DNA of 64,000 bases from Streptomyces pristinaespiralis. GTDB lineage: Bacteria > Actinomycetota > Actinomycetes > Streptomycetales > Streptomycetaceae. Shown here piece after piece: positions 55,775 through 61,910 of the stretch. Numbering within the stretch: the stretch's first letter is position 1; every line of letters starts with the position of its first letter. The notes below the pieces were generated by a model that was not told the origin of the DNA, made no database searches, and worked only from the letters and a program-made list of their open reading frames with translations. A program made the position numbers and the translations under genes. The stretch is taken from assembly GCF_001278075.1 (NCBI RefSeq), contig NZ_CP011340.1, positions 4,154,001 to 4,218,000 on the forward strand. The letters are read 5' to 3'.

Positions 55775-58369
55775 CTAGCCCGCCGCGCCCACGATCAGTC
55801 CGTCCTCGAAACGGTCCACCCGTACGGTGTCGCCGTCCTTGACCTCGCCCGCCAGGATCTCCTTCGCGAGCCGGTCCCCGATCGCCGTCTGGATCAGCCG
55901 CCGCAGCGGGCGCGCGCCGTACGCGGGGTCGTTGCCCTCCTCCGCGAGCCAGGCCAGCGCCTCAGGGGTGACGTCCAGGGTCAGCCGGCGCTCCGCCAGC
56001 CGCTGGGCCAGCCGTCCGATCTGGAGCTCCGCGATGCGCTCCAGCTCCTGCTCGGACAGGGCGGAGAAGACCACCAGGTCGTCGAGCCGGTTGAGGAACT
56101 CCGGCTTGAAGGAGGCCCGCACGACCTCCAGCACCTGCTGCTTCTTCTGCTCCTCGCCGGTCGTGGGGTCCATCAGGTACTGCGAGCCCAGGTTGGAGGT
56201 GAGGATCAGGATGGTGTTGCGGAAGTCCACCGTCCGGCCCTGTCCGTCGGTGAGGCGCCCGTCGTCGAGCACCTGGAGCAGGACGTCGAAGACCTCGGGG
56301 TGGGCCTTCTCCACCTCGTCCAGCAGCACCACGCTGTACGGACGCCGGCGCACGGCCTCGGTGAGCTGGCCGCCCTCCTCGTAGCCGACGTAGCCGGGGG
56401 GCGCGCCGACCAGGCGGGCCACGCTGTGCTTCTCGCCGTACTCGGACATGTCGATGCGGACCATCGCCCGCTCGTCGTCGAAGAGGAAGTCGGCGAGCGC
56501 CTTCGCCAGCTCCGTCTTGCCGACACCGGTCGGGCCGAGGAAGAGGAAGGAACCGGTGGGCCGGTCCGGGTCGGCGATGCCCGCCCGGGTCCTGCGCACC
56601 GCGTCGGAGACCGCCTGCACGGCCTCGGACTGGCCGATGAGCCGGCGGCCCAGCTCCTGCTCCATGCGCAGCAGCTTCTGCGTCTCGCCCTCGAGGAGGC
56701 GTCCGGCCGGGATGCCGGTCCAGGAGCCGACGACGTCCGCGATGTCGTCCGGGCCGACCTCCTCCTTGACCATCGTGTCCTTGGAGGCCTCGGCCTCGGC
56801 CTGCGCCGCCTCCTCCAGCTCGCGCTCGAGGCCGGGGATCTCCCCGTAGAGCAGCTTGGACGCGGTGTCGAAGTCGCCGTCGCGCTGGGCGCGTTCCGCC
56901 TGCCCGCGCAGGTCGTCGAGGCGTTCCTTCAGCTCACCGACGCGGTTGAGGCCCTGCTTCTCCTTCTCCCAGCGGGCGGTGAGTCCGCGCAGCTCCTCCT
57001 CCCGGTCGGCCAGGTCCCTGCGCAGCTTCTCCAGACGCTGCTTGGAGGCGGGGTCGGACTCGTTCTTGAGGGCCAGCTCCTCCATCCGCAGCCGGTCGAC
57101 GGCGCGCTGGAGTTCGTCGATCTCGACGGGCGAGGAGTCGATCTCCATGCGCAGCCGCGACGCGGACTCGTCGACGAGGTCGATGGCCTTGTCGGGCAGG
57201 AACCGGGAGGTGATGTACCGGTCGGAGAGGGTGGCGGCGGCGACCAGGGCGCTGTCGTTGATCTGCACCTTGTGGTGGGCCTCGTAACGGCCCTTGAGCC
57301 CGCGCAGGATGGCGATCGTGTCCTCGACCGACGGCTCGGCGACCAGCACCTGCTGGAAGCGGCGCTCGAGGGCCGGGTCCTTCTCGATCCGCTCGCGGTA
57401 CTCGTCGAGCGTCGTCGCGCCGACCATCCGCAGCTCGCCGCGGGCCAGCATCGGCTTGAGCATGTTGCCCGCGTCCATGGCGGAGTCGCCGCCGGCGCCC
57501 GCGCCGACGACGGTGTGCAGCTCGTCGATGAAGGTGATGATCTGGCCGTTGCTCTCCTTGATCTCGGACAGCACGGTCTTCAGCCGCTCCTCGAACTCAC
57601 CGCGGTACTTGGCGCCCGCCACCATCGCGCCGAGGTCGAGCGCGACGAGCCGCTTGTTGCGCAGCGACTCGGGCACGTCGCCCTTCACGATGCGCTGGGC
57701 GAGGCCCTCGACGACGGCGGTCTTGCCGACGCCGGGCTCGCCGATGAGGACCGGGTTGTTCTTCGTGCGCCGCGACAGGACCTGCACGACGCGGCGGATC
57801 TCCTGGTCCCGGCCGATGACCGGGTCGAGCTTGCCCTCGCGGGCCGCCTCGGTGAAGTCCGTGCCGAACTTCTCCAGCGCCTTGTACTGACCCTCCGGGT
57901 CGGGTGTGGTCACCCGGCGCCCTCCCCTTGCCTTCTCGAAAGCGTCCAGCAGTTCCTTGGCGCCCGCGCCCTGCCGGTCCAGCACCTCGCCCGCCGCGCC
58001 GCCCTTCGCCGCGATGCCGATGAGCAGGTGCTCGGTGGACAGGTACTCGTCGCCGAGCTCCTTGGCCCGCTGCGAGGCGTCGGCGATGACGGCGAGCAGC
58101 TCGCGGTTGGGCTGGGGCGGGGCGACCGTGGAGCCGGTCACGCTCGGCAGCGACGCGAGGATGCGCTCGGCCCCGGAGCGCACGGCTGCCTGGTCCGCGT
58201 CGACGGCGGCCAGCAGATCGGTGATGTTCGCGGCAGCTTGTCGTCCTTGGCCCTCCAGCAGGGCGAGAAGAAGGTGCGCCGGGGTCAGGTCCGGGTGCCC
58301 GTCGGACACCGCCCTGCTGGTGGCGGCGTTGATCGCGTCCCGGCTCTTGTTGGTCAGCTCGGCGTCCAC
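55775..58369 (-). CDS. clpB: ATP-dependent disaggregase ClpB
   Basis: The 864-residue Hsp100 protein has the full order: Clp N-domain, AAA1 ([23 protein letters not shown]), the coiled-coil middle domain ([22 protein letters not shown] in part) that binds DnaK, and AAA2 ([33 protein letters not shown]). With DnaK/DnaJ/GrpE it pulls proteins out of aggregates. Arginine fingers and pore loops look intact. A HAIR operator lies upstream, so HspR should repress it. It ends with AAG; no ClpP-binding loop is expected in this family. Confidence 0.98.
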
Positions 58370-58434
58370 GTGCGCATCTCCTCCTTGCCGAATGGACCGG
58401 TTCCCTCGGTTATGACTCGGACAACGTGCATAAA

Positions 58435-58454
58435 GTTGAGTCTATTCCACTCAG
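58435..58454. promoter_or_regulatory. HAIR element: HspR operator of clpB
   Basis: TTGAGT-CTATTCC-ACTCAG is a near-perfect match to the HspR-binding inverted repeat CTTGAGT-N7-ACTCAAG, about 70 bp upstream of clpB. HspR (encoded at 61461) should bind here with DnaK as co-repressor. It may also touch the divergent F420 gene, whose start is at 58493. Confidence 0.85.
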
Positions 58455-58492
58455 GGTGCTGTCCGACAGAGCCCGGAGGTAGGTTCCGGCCC

Positions 58493-58897
58493 ATGGCCAT
58501 CGACCCTCGCAACCCCGGCGCGTCCTACCTCAGCTTCTGGCGCGATCACCACATGTGCACACTGACGACGCCGCGCCCGGACGGCACTCCGCACGTCGTC
58601 GCGGTGGGCGTCACCTACGACCCCGAGGGCGGGTTCGCCCGGGTGATCACCAACAAGCACAGCCGCAAGGTCGCGAACGTGCTGGCCGCCGGCCCGGACG
58701 GGGCACGGGTGGCGGTCTGCCAGGTGGACAGAGGCCGCTGGGCGACGCTGGAGGGCATCGCGACGATCCGCACGGAGGCGGAGACGGTCGCGGACGCGGT
58801 GAGCCGTTACGCGGAGCGGTACGGACGCACCCCGGCCCCCAATCCGGACCGGGTGGTCATCGAGATCGCGCTCACCCGCGCGATGGGCCGGGCATAG
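58493..58897 (+). CDS. PPOX-class F420/FMN-dependent oxidoreductase
   Basis: The 134-residue split-barrel flavoprotein has LSFWRDHHMCTLTTPRPDGTPHVVAVGVTYDP-type start (quoted parts: FWRDHHMCTLTTPRPDG, VVAVGVTYDP) and the KHSRKVANVLA and DRGRWATLEGIATI segments. These are the F420/FMN phosphate-binding pattern of actinobacterial PPOX proteins (Rv1155-like). It would reduce small electrophiles with F420H2. The ATG at 58493 follows GGAGGT; divergent from clpB across the HAIR site. Heat-shock co-control is possible. Confidence 0.88.
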   Translation: MAIDPRNPGASYLSFWRDHHMCTLTTPRPDGTPHVVAVGVTYDPEGGFARVITNKHSRKVANVLAAGPDGARVAVCQVDRGRWATLEGIATIRTEAETVADAVSRYAERYGRTPAPNPDRVVIEIALTRAMGRA

Positions 58898-58935
58898 CCG
58901 GGCCGGGCGCCGGAGAAGTTTCCGGGCAGCACAAC

Positions 58936-58968
58936 GGCGCCATCGTGTTTCAGGTCCACGATGGCGCC
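58936..58968. terminator. Hairpin terminator of the F420 oxidoreductase gene
   Basis: A perfect 12-bp stem (GGCGCCATCGTG / CACGATGGCGCC) with a 9-base loop, 38 bp after the stop. Confidence 0.85.
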
Positions 58969-58985
58969 GCTGTGTGGGGGAAGCA

Positions 58986-59021
58986 CCTGAGCGATTTGAA
59001 ACGACGGGGGAATCGCTCAGG
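58986..59021. terminator. Hairpin terminator of the peptide / Rieske-like operon
   Basis: An 11-bp stem (CCTGAGCGATT / AATCGCTCAGG) with a 14-base loop overlaps the stop codon (59017-59019) of the minus-strand Rieske-like gene. It faces the opposite terminator just 18 bp away. Confidence 0.75.
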
Positions 59022-59334
59022 CACTGCGGGGGGTGGCGGTGGTGTCCGGCTCGGCCAGCTGGTGGTCACGCTGGTCGAGATTGACAAAAATCATGCCGTA
59101 CCGGATGGCACAGCGGACGGGCTGCGGAGCCCCTCGGGGCCGGCGAAGACAGCGATAGGCACGGACATCCTCGTCCTCCTCGCGTGCGACGACGATCGGC
59201 TCACCGAACAGGGTGACCATCAACGAGTCGCCACGGTGCGGAATCGCCGTGACGAGGTCGATGAAATGCCACCCGGAGCGGTAGGCCGTAGCCATCTCAC
59301 GCCGGAAGACCCGGTCGTCCGGCGGGACGGTCAC
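59017..59334 (-). CDS. Miniature Rieske-domain-like protein without Fe-S ligands
   Basis: The 105-residue protein starts TVPPDDRVFRREMATAYRSGW and holds the edge strands of a Rieske fold (LFGEPIVVAREEDEDVRAYRC; RYGMIFVNLDQRDH). The loops that carry CxH and CxxH cluster ligands are absent: between RAYRC and RYGMIF there are only about 17 residues instead of the usual several dozen. It therefore cannot hold a normal 2Fe-2S centre. The GTG at 59334 overlaps the DVGWG gene stop (GTGA), so it is translationally coupled to it. It may be a peptide-binding or modifying partner. No signal peptide. Confidence 0.65.
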   Translation of the reverse strand: MTVPPDDRVFRREMATAYRSGWHFIDLVTAIPHRGDSLMVTLFGEPIVVAREEDEDVRAYRCLRRPRGAPQPVRCAIRYGMIFVNLDQRDHQLAEPDTTATPRSA

Positions 59335-59579
59335 GCCGTCACATCCGCGCCGACACTGCCCCATCCGACATCGCCGTCGGACTGCTGGGCGGCAACGGCG
59401 GCCTTCCCAACAGGAGCTACGCCCCAGCCGACGTCGCCCTCGGACCCCTCCACGGCGACGGACCTCGCCTTGCCGGGGGCGGAGCCCCAGCCGACGTCCG
59501 AGGTCCCCGACGTCCCGATCATCAGCGCAGCAGCAGCTATCGCGGTAGCAAGCACTGACCGAAGCATTCTCTTGTACAT
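59331..59579 (-). CDS. Secreted DVGWG-repeat peptide precursor
   Basis: The 82-residue protein has a signal peptide (YKRMLRSVLATAIAAAALMIG) with a small-residue cleavage zone (TSGTS). The mature part is three units each headed DVGWG, at residues 28, 49 and 70. The first two are exactly 21 residues with GSAPGK or GVAPVGK after the head; the last is truncated. Repeated short units behind a signal are the shape of a pheromone or bacteriocin precursor processed into several copies. ATG 59579 has GAGGA at long spacing; ATG 59567 is an alternative. I do not know this family. Confidence 0.68.
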   Translation of the reverse strand: MYKRMLRSVLATAIAAAALMIGTSGTSDVGWGSAPGKARSVAVEGSEGDVGWGVAPVGKAAVAAQQSDGDVGWGSVGADVTA

Positions 59580-59708
59580 AGTCGGCTTCGTCCTCACTTG
59601 ATGACTTCCATTCCCCCGCGCAACAAGACGATGGCTCATTAGGGCATGTCAAGCCACAGGAGCGATGCATCATGTTCCTGTACGTTCAGGACCCTGGGGG
59701 GTGGAGAT
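59580..59708. promoter_or_regulatory. Divergent control region between DVGWG peptide and LuxR-type regulator
   Basis: This 129-bp region is less GC-rich and carries an inverted repeat TCCTG-TACGTT-CAGGA at 59676-59691 and the palindrome GATGCATC near 59664. Both lie close to the regulator start. They are plausible binding sites for the regulator, which would then control both itself and the peptide operon. Confidence 0.55.
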
Positions 59709-60719
59709 ATGTCAAAAAAGCATACGAAACCGACACATCCTCATCTCGTCACCGAACTCTGTGACGAGGGAGCGCGTCTCTACGCCAGCGCCTTGACCAC
59801 CGGACGCGTCGCACGTGCCGAGGTCGAACCTGCCCCCTGCCTGTTGGAGTTCGCGCTGCTGCACCCGGATCCGGACGACCCGAACTGGCTGCGGCCGGTC
59901 CCTCCGTCGTCCGCCCTGGCGCAGCGCCTGCACCCCATCGAGCGGGAGATCCAGGACCGCAGACGGTTCTCGGTGGAACTCACCGACACGTTCGAGCCCT
60001 TCATGGCCATCAGCACCCAGAAGCCTCCCACCACCCACGCCATCACGGTGCTCGAAGGCTTCGACCGCATCGACGCCGCGCTCGACGTGGCGATCGCCGA
60101 GAGCCAGACGGAAGTCCTGACCGTACAGCCCGGCGGCGGGCGGAGTGAGCACAACCTGAGCAAGGCCCTCGACCGCAGCAAGCCGCTCATCGACAACGGC
60201 ATCCGCGTCCGCACCCTGTACCAGCACACGGTCCGGCACAGTCAGCGCACCTTCGCGTACGTCGAGCGCATGGCCGGCACCAAGATGGAGATTCGTACGC
60301 TCGAAGAGCTGATCGAGCGGCTCATCATCTGTGACGAGGCGGTCGCGTTCATCCCTGCCAGGGACGACCGCCAAGTCGCCCTCGAGCTGCGGCACCCTGG
60401 CCTGGTCGCGTACCTCACCAAGGTGTTCGAACATCTCTGGGCGCGTGCCGTGCCACTCATGGAGGAAGTGCCTTACGGCCCCGCCTCCCACGGCATCAGC
60501 GGCGTGCAGCGCTCCATCGCGAAACTCCTCATCGAAGGCCATGTGGACGAGGCCATTGCCCGGCGGCTCGGTATGAACGTCCGTACCTGCCGGGCCCACA
60601 TTGCCAAGCTGGCTGCCGCGCTCGGCAGCGGCAGCCGTGCCCAACTCGGCTACCTCATCGCAAAGTCCGGGATCCTGGGAGAGACCGAAGACTACTCCGA
60701 AGGCGATACGCGCGACTGA
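59709..60719 (+). CDS. LuxR-type regulator with TrmB/PLD-like sensor domain
   Basis: The 336-residue protein has an N-terminal region (CDEGARLYASALTTGRV), a central domain of about 150 residues like the TrmB C-terminal/phospholipase-D-like sensor (AIAESQTEVLTVQPGGG; LDRSKPLIDNGIRVRTLYQ; ICDEAVAFIP) and a C-terminal LuxR HTH (LLIEGHVDEAIARRLGMNVR; THIAKL-like RAHIAKLAAALGSGSR). There is no receiver domain, so it senses a ligand directly. The ATG has GGTGGAG 5 nt upstream. Divergent from the peptide gene, it may be the peptide receptor. Confidence 0.85.
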   Translation: MSKKHTKPTHPHLVTELCDEGARLYASALTTGRVARAEVEPAPCLLEFALLHPDPDDPNWLRPVPPSSALAQRLHPIEREIQDRRRFSVELTDTFEPFMAISTQKPPTTHAITVLEGFDRIDAALDVAIAESQTEVLTVQPGGGRSEHNLSKALDRSKPLIDNGIRVRTLYQHTVRHSQRTFAYVERMAGTKMEIRTLEELIERLIICDEAVAFIPARDDRQVALELRHPGLVAYLTKVFEHLWARAVPLMEEVPYGPASHGISGVQRSIAKLLIEGHVDEAIARRLGMNVRTCRAHIAKLAAALGSGSRAQLGYLIAKSGILGETEDYSEGDTRD

Positions 60720-60966
60720 TCACCTCGCTGCACTCGGATCGTGCCCCGACCACCAGCAACACGGTGTCGCACTCCGTGTTCAGCTTGTCGAACGGGGCGT
60801 TGCGCTCGGCGGGGCGGTAGTCGGCACTCCCATCAGCGTCTCCATCACCCCCCCTTGGGCCTGGCAAGTCCTCCAGGTCATCGTGGACCGCGGGACACGT
60901 CGTACCGGAGACCCGCAGGCAATCGGCCTCTTGCGGGACCGCGAGGAAGACCTTGGGGTCAGTCAC
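60655..60966 (-). CDS. Possible small protein with CPAVH motif
   Basis: This 103-codon frame starts with a GTG that overlaps the stop of the small membrane gene by 8 bp. Its first half reads TDPKVFLAVPQEADCLRVSG then TTCPAVHDDLED, reminiscent of short CPxVH-type Streptomyces proteins often found with HTH regulators. The second half looks less protein-like and overlaps the 3' end of the LuxR gene by 65 bp. It may be a remnant. Low confidence. Confidence 0.3.
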   Translation of the reverse strand: MTDPKVFLAVPQEADCLRVSGTTCPAVHDDLEDLPGPRGGDGDADGSADYRPAERNAPFDKLNTECDTVLLVVGARSECSEVISRAYRLRSSLRSLPGSRTLR

Positions 60967-61177
60967 CGCGCGGACGCCAGACGCGGGCTTGCCGGACGGC
61001 GACGGTGGCTGCCCACAGCCACATCAGGACGCTCACGATCAGGACGGTCCCCGCCGCCGACCACAGCAGTTCACGTGTGATGTAGGACTCTCCGTCCGCG
61101 CTGACCGGGGTTGCGAGCCCAGCCGCGACGACGCTCCCGACAAGACCTGCCAGGGCTCCGATGACTGGGACCAGCAT
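60959..61177 (-). CDS. Small two-helix membrane protein
   Basis: A 72-residue frame with two clear membrane helices (LVPVIGALAGLVGSVVAAGL and LLWSAAGTVLIVSVLMWLWA) joined by a short polar loop, then a basic tail RQARVWRPRG. It has no good ribosome-binding site. The segment sits exactly between the intact regulator and the HTH remnant, as though inserted where the second regulator lost its N-terminus. Function unknown. Confidence 0.4.
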   Translation of the reverse strand: MLVPVIGALAGLVGSVVAAGLATPVSADGESYITRELLWSAAGTVLIVSVLMWLWAATVAVRQARVWRPRGD

Positions 61178-61186
61178 CGCATCGGG

Positions 61187-61390
61187 CAGTTGCCTGCCGC
61201 AGGCTACGCCGACGAGATCGTCGCCCGCCGTATGGGAGTCAGTGTGCGGACCTGTCGCACGCACATCGCCCGACTGATGCGGACGCTCGGCGCCTCGAGC
61301 CGCACCCACCTCGGTGCGCTGCTCGCTCAATCGGGCATTGTCGGTGTGGGCTACCGCGCGGCCTCACGCGGCCGCGCCGACGACAAGTGA
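61187..61390 (+). pseudogene. HTH remnant of a second LuxR/TrmB-type regulator
   Basis: The frame ending at 61390 reads AAGYADEIVARRMGVSVRTC, then RTHIARLMRTLGASSRTHLG and ALLAQSGIVG. It aligns along its length with the HTH of the regulator at 59709 (GHVDEAIARRLGMNVRTC; AHIAKLAAALGSGSRAQLG; YLIAKSGILG). No sensor domain precedes it; upstream in-frame codons are noise. It is a broken duplicate. Confidence 0.75.
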
Positions 61391-61402
61391 TCGCCGCACG
61401 CA

Positions 61403-61435
61403 AAGGGCCGGAGCGCGTTCCGCTCTCCGGCCCTT
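61403..61435. terminator. Hairpin terminator of the dnaK-hspR operon
   Basis: A perfect 11-bp stem (AAGGGCCGGAG / CTCCGGCCCTT) with an 11-base loop, 25 bp after the hspR stop. Confidence 0.85.
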
Positions 61436-61460
61436 GCCGCACCCGCTACAACTTGCCCTA

Positions 61461-61910
61461 CTACTCCGGCCGCTTGGGCCGCCAGACGACCAGCGCGCTC
61501 GCCTGCTGGACGTCCTGGTACGGGACGAGGTCGCGCCGGTAGGAAGCGTGCACCTGCGCCTCGCGCTGCTGCATCGCCGCCGCCGCGCCGTCGAGGGCCG
61601 ACGACAGCTCCGCCACCCGCTGCTGGAGAGCCGCGACCTGGTTCTCCAGTTCGATGATCCGCTTGATACCGGCCAGGTTGATGCCCTCGTCCTGGGACAA
61701 CTGCTGCACCGTACGGAGCAGTTCGATGTCACGGGCCGAGTAGCGCCTGCCGCGGCCGGCCGTGCGGTCGGGCGAGACGAGACCCAGCCGGTCGTACTGG
61801 CGCAGGGTCTGCGGGTGCAGGCCCGACAGCTGCGCGGCGACCGAGATGACGTACACCGGCGACTCGTCGGTCAGTTCGTACGGGTTGCGACTGCGCCCCG
61901 ACCGGTCCAT
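61461..61910 (-). CDS. hspR: Heat-shock repressor HspR (MerR family)
   Basis: The 149-residue protein has a MerR-type HTH (YVISVAAQLSGLHPQTLRQYD, then LGLVSPDRTAGRGRRYSARD) and a coiled-coil dimer helix (GIKRIIELENQVAALQQRV). It binds HAIR inverted repeats before dnaK and clpB. DnaK acts as its co-repressor, so free chaperone level tunes transcription. It is the last gene of dnaK-grpE-dnaJ-hspR, 1 bp after dnaJ. The target HAIR site for clpB is seen at 58435; the dnaK promoter is outside the window. Confidence 0.96.
   Translation of the reverse strand: MDRSGRSRNPYELTDESPVYVISVAAQLSGLHPQTLRQYDRLGLVSPDRTAGRGRRYSARDIELLRTVQQLSQDEGINLAGIKRIIELENQVAALQQRVAELSSALDGAAAAMQQREAQVHASYRRDLVPYQDVQQASALVVWRPKRPE

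Follow-up and report, generated by a model that had tools for sequence, protein, structure and literature searches.

Organisation of the locus

The window, a stretch of 64,000 nucleotides (positions 4,154,001-4,218,000) of the 8.53-Mb chromosome of Streptomyces pristinaespiralis, holds a small propeptide gene, a mini-Rieske gene coupled to it and a divergent regulator gene (Table 1). The trio is flanked by clpB and by hspR-dnaJ-grpE, whose ORFs were named by their own sequence. An earlier note, made from the letters of the DNA, had described a secreted peptide of DVGWG units joined to a Rieske-like protein and divergent from a regulator with a TrmB-like domain, and its account of the gene layout holds. 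The propeptide begins with a hydrophobic, signal-like stretch and has DVGWG at residues 28, 49 and 70, both intervals being exactly 21 residues; the codons of the third unit differ from those of the first two. Its stop and the start of the Rieske-like frame share GTGA, the regulator gives a TrmBL2-like match, and the 129-bp gap proposed as a shared promoter holds the inverted repeat TCCTG-N6-CAGGA.

Table 1. Features of the locus, in positions of the window.
Feature	Position	Strand	Remarks
Propeptide gene, 82 aa, three units with core DVGW(G)	59331..59579	-	From translation; RBS-like GAGG before the ATG is conserved
Ligand-less mini-Rieske gene, 105 aa	59017..59334	-	GTGA overlap with the propeptide gene
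Regulator gene, 336 aa, proposed receptor	59709..60719	+	Divergent from the propeptide-Rieske pair
Regulator parts (residues)			N-terminal 1-105; TrmB-like/DUF7436 sensor ~106-250; C-terminal GerE/LuxR-type HTH ~262-326
Palindrome TCCTGTACGTTCAGGA, proposed operator	59676..59691	.	Kept genus-wide; 17 bp 5' of the regulator start codon
Conserved block GCCATCGTCTT in propeptide leader or promoter	59625..59635	-	

Two strong inverted repeats lie where the Rieske gene ends and immediately beyond (58930-58974 and 58986-59021; arms of 18 nt, 94% complementary, and of 11 nt, perfect) and are perhaps terminators between convergent genes. A scan of 58880-61000 returned no sigma-70 promoter and one terminator-like site against 0.9 expected, while Rfam at gathering scores gave no match in 58300-61600. 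Beyond the regulator gene, positions 61169-61348 on the plus strand, inside the frame 60953-61390, encode a C-terminal HTH remnant with 52% identity to the trio regulator, apparently what is left of a tandem paralogue that has decayed. In its place the S. coelicolor-type locus has two more genes of LuxR type, both intact (SCO3665 and SCO3666).

A four-residue word in the propeptides

In each of the 189 loci collected, duplicates included, the mini-Rieske gene is directly preceded by a small ORF with one or more [DENF]xxW units, and 154/154 distinct loci have the regulator upstream in divergent orientation. A parser that required the family's signal-like start extracted 185 of the loci and four were read by hand (the start of L290 was seen in part only); collapsing duplicates reduced the 185 to the 154 distinct loci. 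The signal-like N-terminus was judged by the family motif or a hydropathy filter. Units were located with the expression [DENF]..W from position 18 on, which constrains the first and fourth residues (p1 and p4) and leaves p2 and p3 free. Their form is [DE]-x-x-W, N or F being rare at the first place.

Precursors of the distinct loci carry 1-10 units, and 31 of the 154 carry one. The four residues are identical across all units in 112 of the 123 multi-unit precursors, the other 11 mixing two words, while in 1000 shuffles the number of homogeneous precursors averaged 4.2 and reached 12 at most. Over 756 unit pairs the identity within precursors is 1.00, 0.99, 0.99 and 1.00 at p1 to p4, with p1 and p4 partly fixed by the expression, and it falls outside the word to 0.39 one residue before it, 0.72 at p5 and 0.29 at p6. 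Agreement between loci is 0.23 at p2 and 0.19 at p3, and the 154 loci have 39 distinct tetrapeptides, the commonest being EPSW, DSGW, EPTW, DSTW and DVGW. Because the codons differ in 482 of the 739 unit pairs with an identical word (the DNA is identical in 257), the word is kept by selection and not by recent duplication alone. Precursors end one residue past a Trp in 38/154 loci, and in 19/31 of those with one unit; the one-unit precursor of S. violaceoruber type ends ...TTSDTIWS.

The tetrapeptide repeat in the propeptide is thus confirmed as more than chance, since the core is conserved inside precursors and such an ORF is present in 189/189 loci. DVGWG as a fixed signature of the family is ruled out, DVGW being one of the 39 words, and the unit of 13-21 residues given in the earlier note contracts to an invariant four (DVGW) with a partly conserved fifth. 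The original observation was correct and its scope is larger than first read: on this comparison the DVGW repeat is one member of a hypervariable peptide family.

Multi-core RiPP precursors have repeated cores behind a leader, and the propeptide with its small operon partner recalls them; it might then be a multi-core antimicrobial or modified peptide, with the regulator governing its production or immunity. We regard this as very unlikely. No modification, export or immunity genes were recognised by eye among the ORFs flanking the trio or in the S. coelicolor-type locus, which likewise lends no support to the warfare role that the note had allowed for. In addition, the leader resembles a Sec signal, 19/154 loci have single-copy C-terminal versions, and specificity follows the sensor part of the regulator (see below).

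The regulator and its proposed operator

A structure-profile search with the regulator gave a single hit, a weak match of the sensor part to TrmBL2 (PDB 5box) over profile positions 59-252 (E 1.8e-5). In Pfam the regulator has weak matches to GerE and DUF7436, and HTH families match its C-terminal part at about 267-313; the hits comprised DUF7436, GerE and other HTH families, with no TPR among them. The N-terminal part (1-105) looks winged-helix-like by eye in the paralogue L222. GerE is matched in 11 of 15 family members, and the seven families listed for these 15 include no autoinducer-binding domain, which sets them apart from LuxR-type receptors of AHLs.

For the intergenic DNA 36 loci picked by hand were compared. 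The left half of the palindrome, TCCTG, and the right half, CAGGA, are each kept in 34/36, just 5' of the regulator start; the spacer is 6 in 28 and 5 in 6 of the loci with the left half, and ACATGATGC, which follows the palindrome, is kept in 36/36. The half-sites CCTG/CAGG resemble GerE-type boxes. We infer that the regulator controls its own gene and the propeptide-Rieske operon, presumably by binding the palindrome through its C-terminal GerE-type HTH. A wider regulon was not supported by an operator search, with 24 sites (up to 3 mismatches) against 23 in the reversed control, and the 21-mer that spans the palindrome occurs in exact form once in the 8.5-Mb genome, so that no further target of the regulator can be named.

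Co-variation of the word with the regulator sensor

Distances between tetrapeptides were compared with distances between regulators in 153 of the 154 loci, L110 being left out as its regulator is cut. Word and sensor part (106-250) correlate with r 0.72, and the partial Mantel correlation given the N-terminal part, the HTH and the Rieske protein is 0.525, against a maximum of 0.049 in 500 label permutations that ignore phylogeny. Near loci were also compared as 68 disjoint pairs: the ratio of sensor to N-terminal divergence is 0.50 in the 41 pairs that share a word and 1.08 in the 27 that do not (p 1.1e-6), and the same test on the HTH gives p 0.23.

Individual residues follow the word closely. 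Leu136 accompanies Pro at p2 in 40/40 cases among the 153 loci, Met136 accompanies Ser in 53/53 and Val136 accompanies Thr in 25/26; Val136 is also found with Ile (16/16), Val (9/9) and Leu (7/9). Asp157 is present in 79/79 loci with Ser or Thr at p2 and in 0/74 with other residues there, and Ser145 in 8/8 with Lys or Arg at p3 and 0/145 with others.

Because phylogeny could fake such a code, independent switches were counted on two trees, one of clpB DNA (112 of the 153 loci; clpB was found in 137, with at least 300 bp in 112) and one of the regulator N-terminal part, HTH and Rieske protein (153 loci). On the clpB tree Ser/Thr at p2 switches with Met/Val136 in 7/7 supported pairs (14/14 over all branches), Ser or Thr against other residues with Asp157 in 5/5 (16/16), and Lys/Arg at p3 with Ser145 in 4/4 (5/5). 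The corresponding counts on the second tree are 4/4 (14/14), 3/3 (6/6) and 1/1 (2/2), and neither tree has a switch in the opposite direction for these three links. Pro2-Leu136 has one supported independent pair per tree (4/4 and 1/1 over all branches). Changes between D and E at p1 are not joined by changes at W250 and I201 in 2/4 supported pairs on the clpB tree and about 3/4 on the other, and p3 changes jointly with Thr181 in about 3.4/6 and 1.5/5 supported pairs, respectively.

A code of Ser2-Met136, Thr2-Val136 and Ser/Thr2-Asp157 holds over independent switches, while the place of Pro2-Leu136 in it rests on few. Asp157 could take the hydroxyl of Ser or Thr, and the larger Met136 could fill the space left by Ser.

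These switches also bear on a structural alternative, in which the precursor is a small secreted protein that binds surfaces or walls by linear motifs, the DxxW units, and is tied to the regulator by ordinary linkage. Tandem aromatic motifs with free spacers, here in 1-10 copies, can indeed be avidity repeats. A shared surface target would not vary the word between near species, however, the word tracks residues 136 and 157 over independent switches, and 31/154 precursors have a single unit; we consider a role of this kind highly improbable.

The mini-Rieske protein

The mini-Rieske protein resembles the Rieske regions of ring hydroxylases in their N-terminal part, and the Pfam Rieske family matches it only below the cut-off. 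It was found in 163/199 genomes of the genus and in 327/392 of a second, overlapping sample. In six genomes (G047, G048, G050, G105, G183 and G336) the matches were weak, with E from 1e-9 to 2e-16, and may be other Rieske proteins, perhaps full-length oxygenases. The alignments used here, of 71 regulator and 45 Rieske rows, were picked by hand, and the 44 chosen homologues are 73-94% identical to the window protein. The CxH...CxxH 2Fe-2S ligand motif is absent from all 45 aligned homologues, in agreement with the description of the protein as ligand-less; of the two common cysteines, Cys62 is kept in 40 and Cys75 in 42 of the 45, their His partners being absent, and all 45 have a C-terminal PRSA.

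The earlier note had left open whether the regulator or the Rieske-like protein recognises the peptide. The Rieske gene is translationally coupled to the propeptide gene. In the 51 genomes common to both searches, counted by hand and with a regulator taken as orthologue-grade at E below 1e-125, the mini-Rieske protein and the regulator are found together in 43 and are both missing in 8, and no genome has one without the other (Fisher 1.6e-9); the near-locus test gives a weak trend for the Rieske protein (p 0.018). Once the parts of the regulator are accounted for, however, its partial correlation with the word is 0.002, within a null range of -0.04 to 0.04. With no co-variation left to it the mini-Rieske protein is disfavoured as the receptor of the peptide, and we think it exceedingly unlikely that it and not the regulator is the receiver. 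The protein is, as far as co-occurrence and co-variation indicate, a strict companion in Streptomyces and not a specificity determinant; at a guess, it might be a docking or stabilising partner.

Paralogous pairs and plasmids

A profile of the regulator (A1, E 1e-20) matched in 147/147 genomes searched in the order, with 1-15 matches each, and in 92/197 of the class. The genome of the window has seven further matches, one being the remnant at 61169-61348, and three of them adjoin a secreted-looking DxxW ORF of their own (...QDPGWV, ...ADDKWD..., and DDFVWP twice). Paralogue-linked ORFs of other Streptomyces and other genera have the words ...DPGWD, ...KDSAWG, ...NDLGWG, ...DDTGWD, ...TDSLWD and ...DDLSWG, or DTSWGG, DTTWGY and GFGWD in two copies each. 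By one filter a secreted xxxW ORF lies within 700 bp of the paralogue in 30 of 68 loci, 24 of them with [DE]xxW, while a control of 2000 placements made at random within 400 kb of one genome, that of the window, gave 3.9% (2.6% with [DE]xxW); in 38/68 the filter found none, and the ORF of L275, counted among the 30, is unconvincing and looks spurious. Two distant paralogues, L156 and L215, have a secreted ORF with DDFVWP twice, about 35-40 residues apart, and the ORFs of L262 and L278 end in a Cys-bearing word (CAGCWS and CGACWE), possibly a variant class.

From these loci 29 pairs were picked by hand; they include L279, which is outside the 700-bp limit, and leave out L219 (a near copy of L218), L275, L270 and L301. 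Asp157 is present in 12/13 pairs with Ser or Thr at p2 and in 9/16 with other residues (Fisher 0.044), and since it is common in the latter as well, the residue code is not transferred whole to the paralogues. An arginine at 168 is present in 21/22 pairs with an acidic p1 and in 3/7 without (Fisher 0.0067), a post-hoc hint that R168 may hold the acidic first residue of the peptide.

Relatives of the regulator (E 1e-15) are present in 55 of 72,556 plasmid records, and none was found at E 1e-5 among 50,697 phage records. Six plasmid loci were opened, and four (L310, L312, L314 and L315) have a small secreted-looking ORF with a word. In one the ORF ends ...SGDSAWG and lies upstream of 2-ketoarginine-methyltransferase genes; the other three pairs (...DDQWGVAHP, ...DDQWGAACP and ...DDRWELTCP) lie by AfsA-like (hotdog) and acyl-carrier genes. 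The filter found none in L311 and L313, the latter having a small frame with DENWC that lacks a signal.

The plasmid pairs bear on the idea that the read-out is intracellular, with the regulator sensing unexported or misprocessed propeptide and thereby monitoring Sec export or proteolysis. Co-variation of word and sensor would suit any direct contact of peptide and regulator, neither the regulator nor the Rieske protein has a hydrophobic N-terminus by eye, and the chromosomal locus is flanked by the chaperone genes clpB and hspR-dnaJ. A monitor would have no need, however, of a fast-changing word, and in the six stretches of plasmid that were opened, four of them with the peptide, the annotation lists no chaperone. 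We consider such a monitor improbable.

The orthologue in S. coelicolor and actinorhodin

In genome G245, whose mini-Rieske protein is identical to that named as from S. violaceoruber, the gene order is hspR, frames of 372, 394 and 327 aa, the trio regulator, peptide, Rieske and clpB. The SCO numbers of clpB and hspR are given in the available text of PMC2631018, and a table in PMC3282765 lists SCO3665 with 327 aa and SCO3666 with 394 aa. As the order in G245 fits SCO3668 to SCO3661, SCO3664 is by synteny the orthologue of the window regulator. SCO2686 was identified as a paralogue. The forward primer given for it in PMC6585502 matches G245 exactly at a single site, which lies a short way upstream of a paralogue gene; with one choice of start this frame has 338 aa, as listed for SCO2686, and the ORF beside it ends ...TDDSQWG.

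According to the available text of PMC6585502, a transposon screen gave mutants whose actinorhodin was raised more than 50-fold, SCO3664 being one of the genes hit in them, SCO3664 and SCO2686 are among eight regulatory down-modulators of actinorhodin with added support, and a SCO3664 complementation plasmid is listed. That text names no peptide partner for either regulator, whereas here each adjoins a secreted-looking ORF (DTIWS and DSQWG). The SCO3664 insertion may act partly through the overlapping SCO3665.

The BldK-linked signal has a mass of 655 Da. DTIWS, at 620.28 Da, was considered as this signal and rejected, as none of five pieces containing DTIW fits 655.

Discussion

The conserved trio, the co-variation of word and sensor and the paralogous pairs strongly support the self-contained peptide-signalling cassette, read by the regulator, that the earlier note had proposed. 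We consider it quite probable that the locus is a peptide-pheromone/receptor system in which a secreted [DE]-x-x-W word is read by the divergent regulator. The propeptide, to judge from its N-terminus, would be exported through Sec and cleaved by proteases that include signal peptidase, releasing short peptides that carry the specificity word, here DVGW or perhaps DVGWG. The mature peptide would enter cells of the same kind, probably via an oligopeptide permease, and bind the TrmB-like sensor part of the regulator. Residues 136 and 157 would read the second residue of the peptide and residues 143, 145, 151 and 181 the third, for which the co-variation is weaker. As to the direction of control, the published phenotype of the SCO3664 mutant suggests that in S. 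coelicolor the regulator holds down actinorhodin.

Most of the Streptomyces genomes examined seem to encode a tiny secreted word peptide beside the gene of its likely reader. With less assurance, we lean towards a wider reading, in which a class-wide and so far unrecognised family of actinobacterial pheromones pairs C-terminal or tandem [D/E]xxW words with TrmB-like/GerE regulators through a two-residue code, is also plasmid-borne and acts as a brake on antibiotics. This judgement takes in together the up to 15 regulator matches per genome, the specialised-metabolite neighbours on plasmids and the brake in S. coelicolor.

Streptomyces make many antibiotics, and many of the pathways are silent in the laboratory. 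A synthetic tetra- or pentapeptide predictable from the genome and added to the culture would, if the reading is true, be a direct and cheap handle on them, one that rests on SCO3664 and SCO2686 holding down actinorhodin. Specificity of the receptor, on the proposed two-residue code, would be testable by single substitutions. We found no description of this peptide family in the open-access full-text literature (PMC), so that Actinobacteria would gain a class of peptide quorum sensing absent from that literature as found, and the soil bacteria that produce antibiotics would turn out to have a chemical language, not recognised until now, that is linked to the control of antibiotics.

The closest likeness is to the RRNPP/RRNPPA systems of Bacillota (Rap-Phr, PlcR-PapR, Rgg-SHP, AimR-AimP), which according to the available text of PMC11343458 have a Sec-type propeptide gene beside that of a regulator of 250-500 aa; a small Sec-type propeptide gene beside a putative receptor gene, of 336 aa in the window, is likewise found here (ORF 189/189, regulator 154/154). 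In the same text the short RRNPP peptide is often C-terminal and sometimes repeated in 1-4 copies, tandemly duplicated Phr propeptides being among them, where here there are up to 10, and both families have several paralogous pairs per genome and specificity pairs. The hosts here are Actinomycetota and not Bacillota, and signals of Actinomycetota are typically small molecules (PMC10075063, available text). The peptide differs in having a Trp that never varies and a first residue that is acidic in nearly all cases, and the receptor in being TrmB-like with a C-terminal GerE HTH and without a TPR match; for want of TPR we do not file the family under RRNPP, despite its proposed RRNPP-like working.

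The sensor part of the regulator is like that of TrmB/TrmBL2 (PDB 5box) and DUF7436. TrmB binds DNA through its N-terminal part and its known ligands are sugars, whereas the regulator has its GerE-type HTH at the C-terminus and is proposed to bind a peptide. Gamma-butyrolactone, a population signal of Streptomyces, is a lactone made by an enzyme and controls antibiotics. The word peptide would, like it, be a population signal over antibiotic production but, unlike it, a genetically encoded one whose word differs between species.
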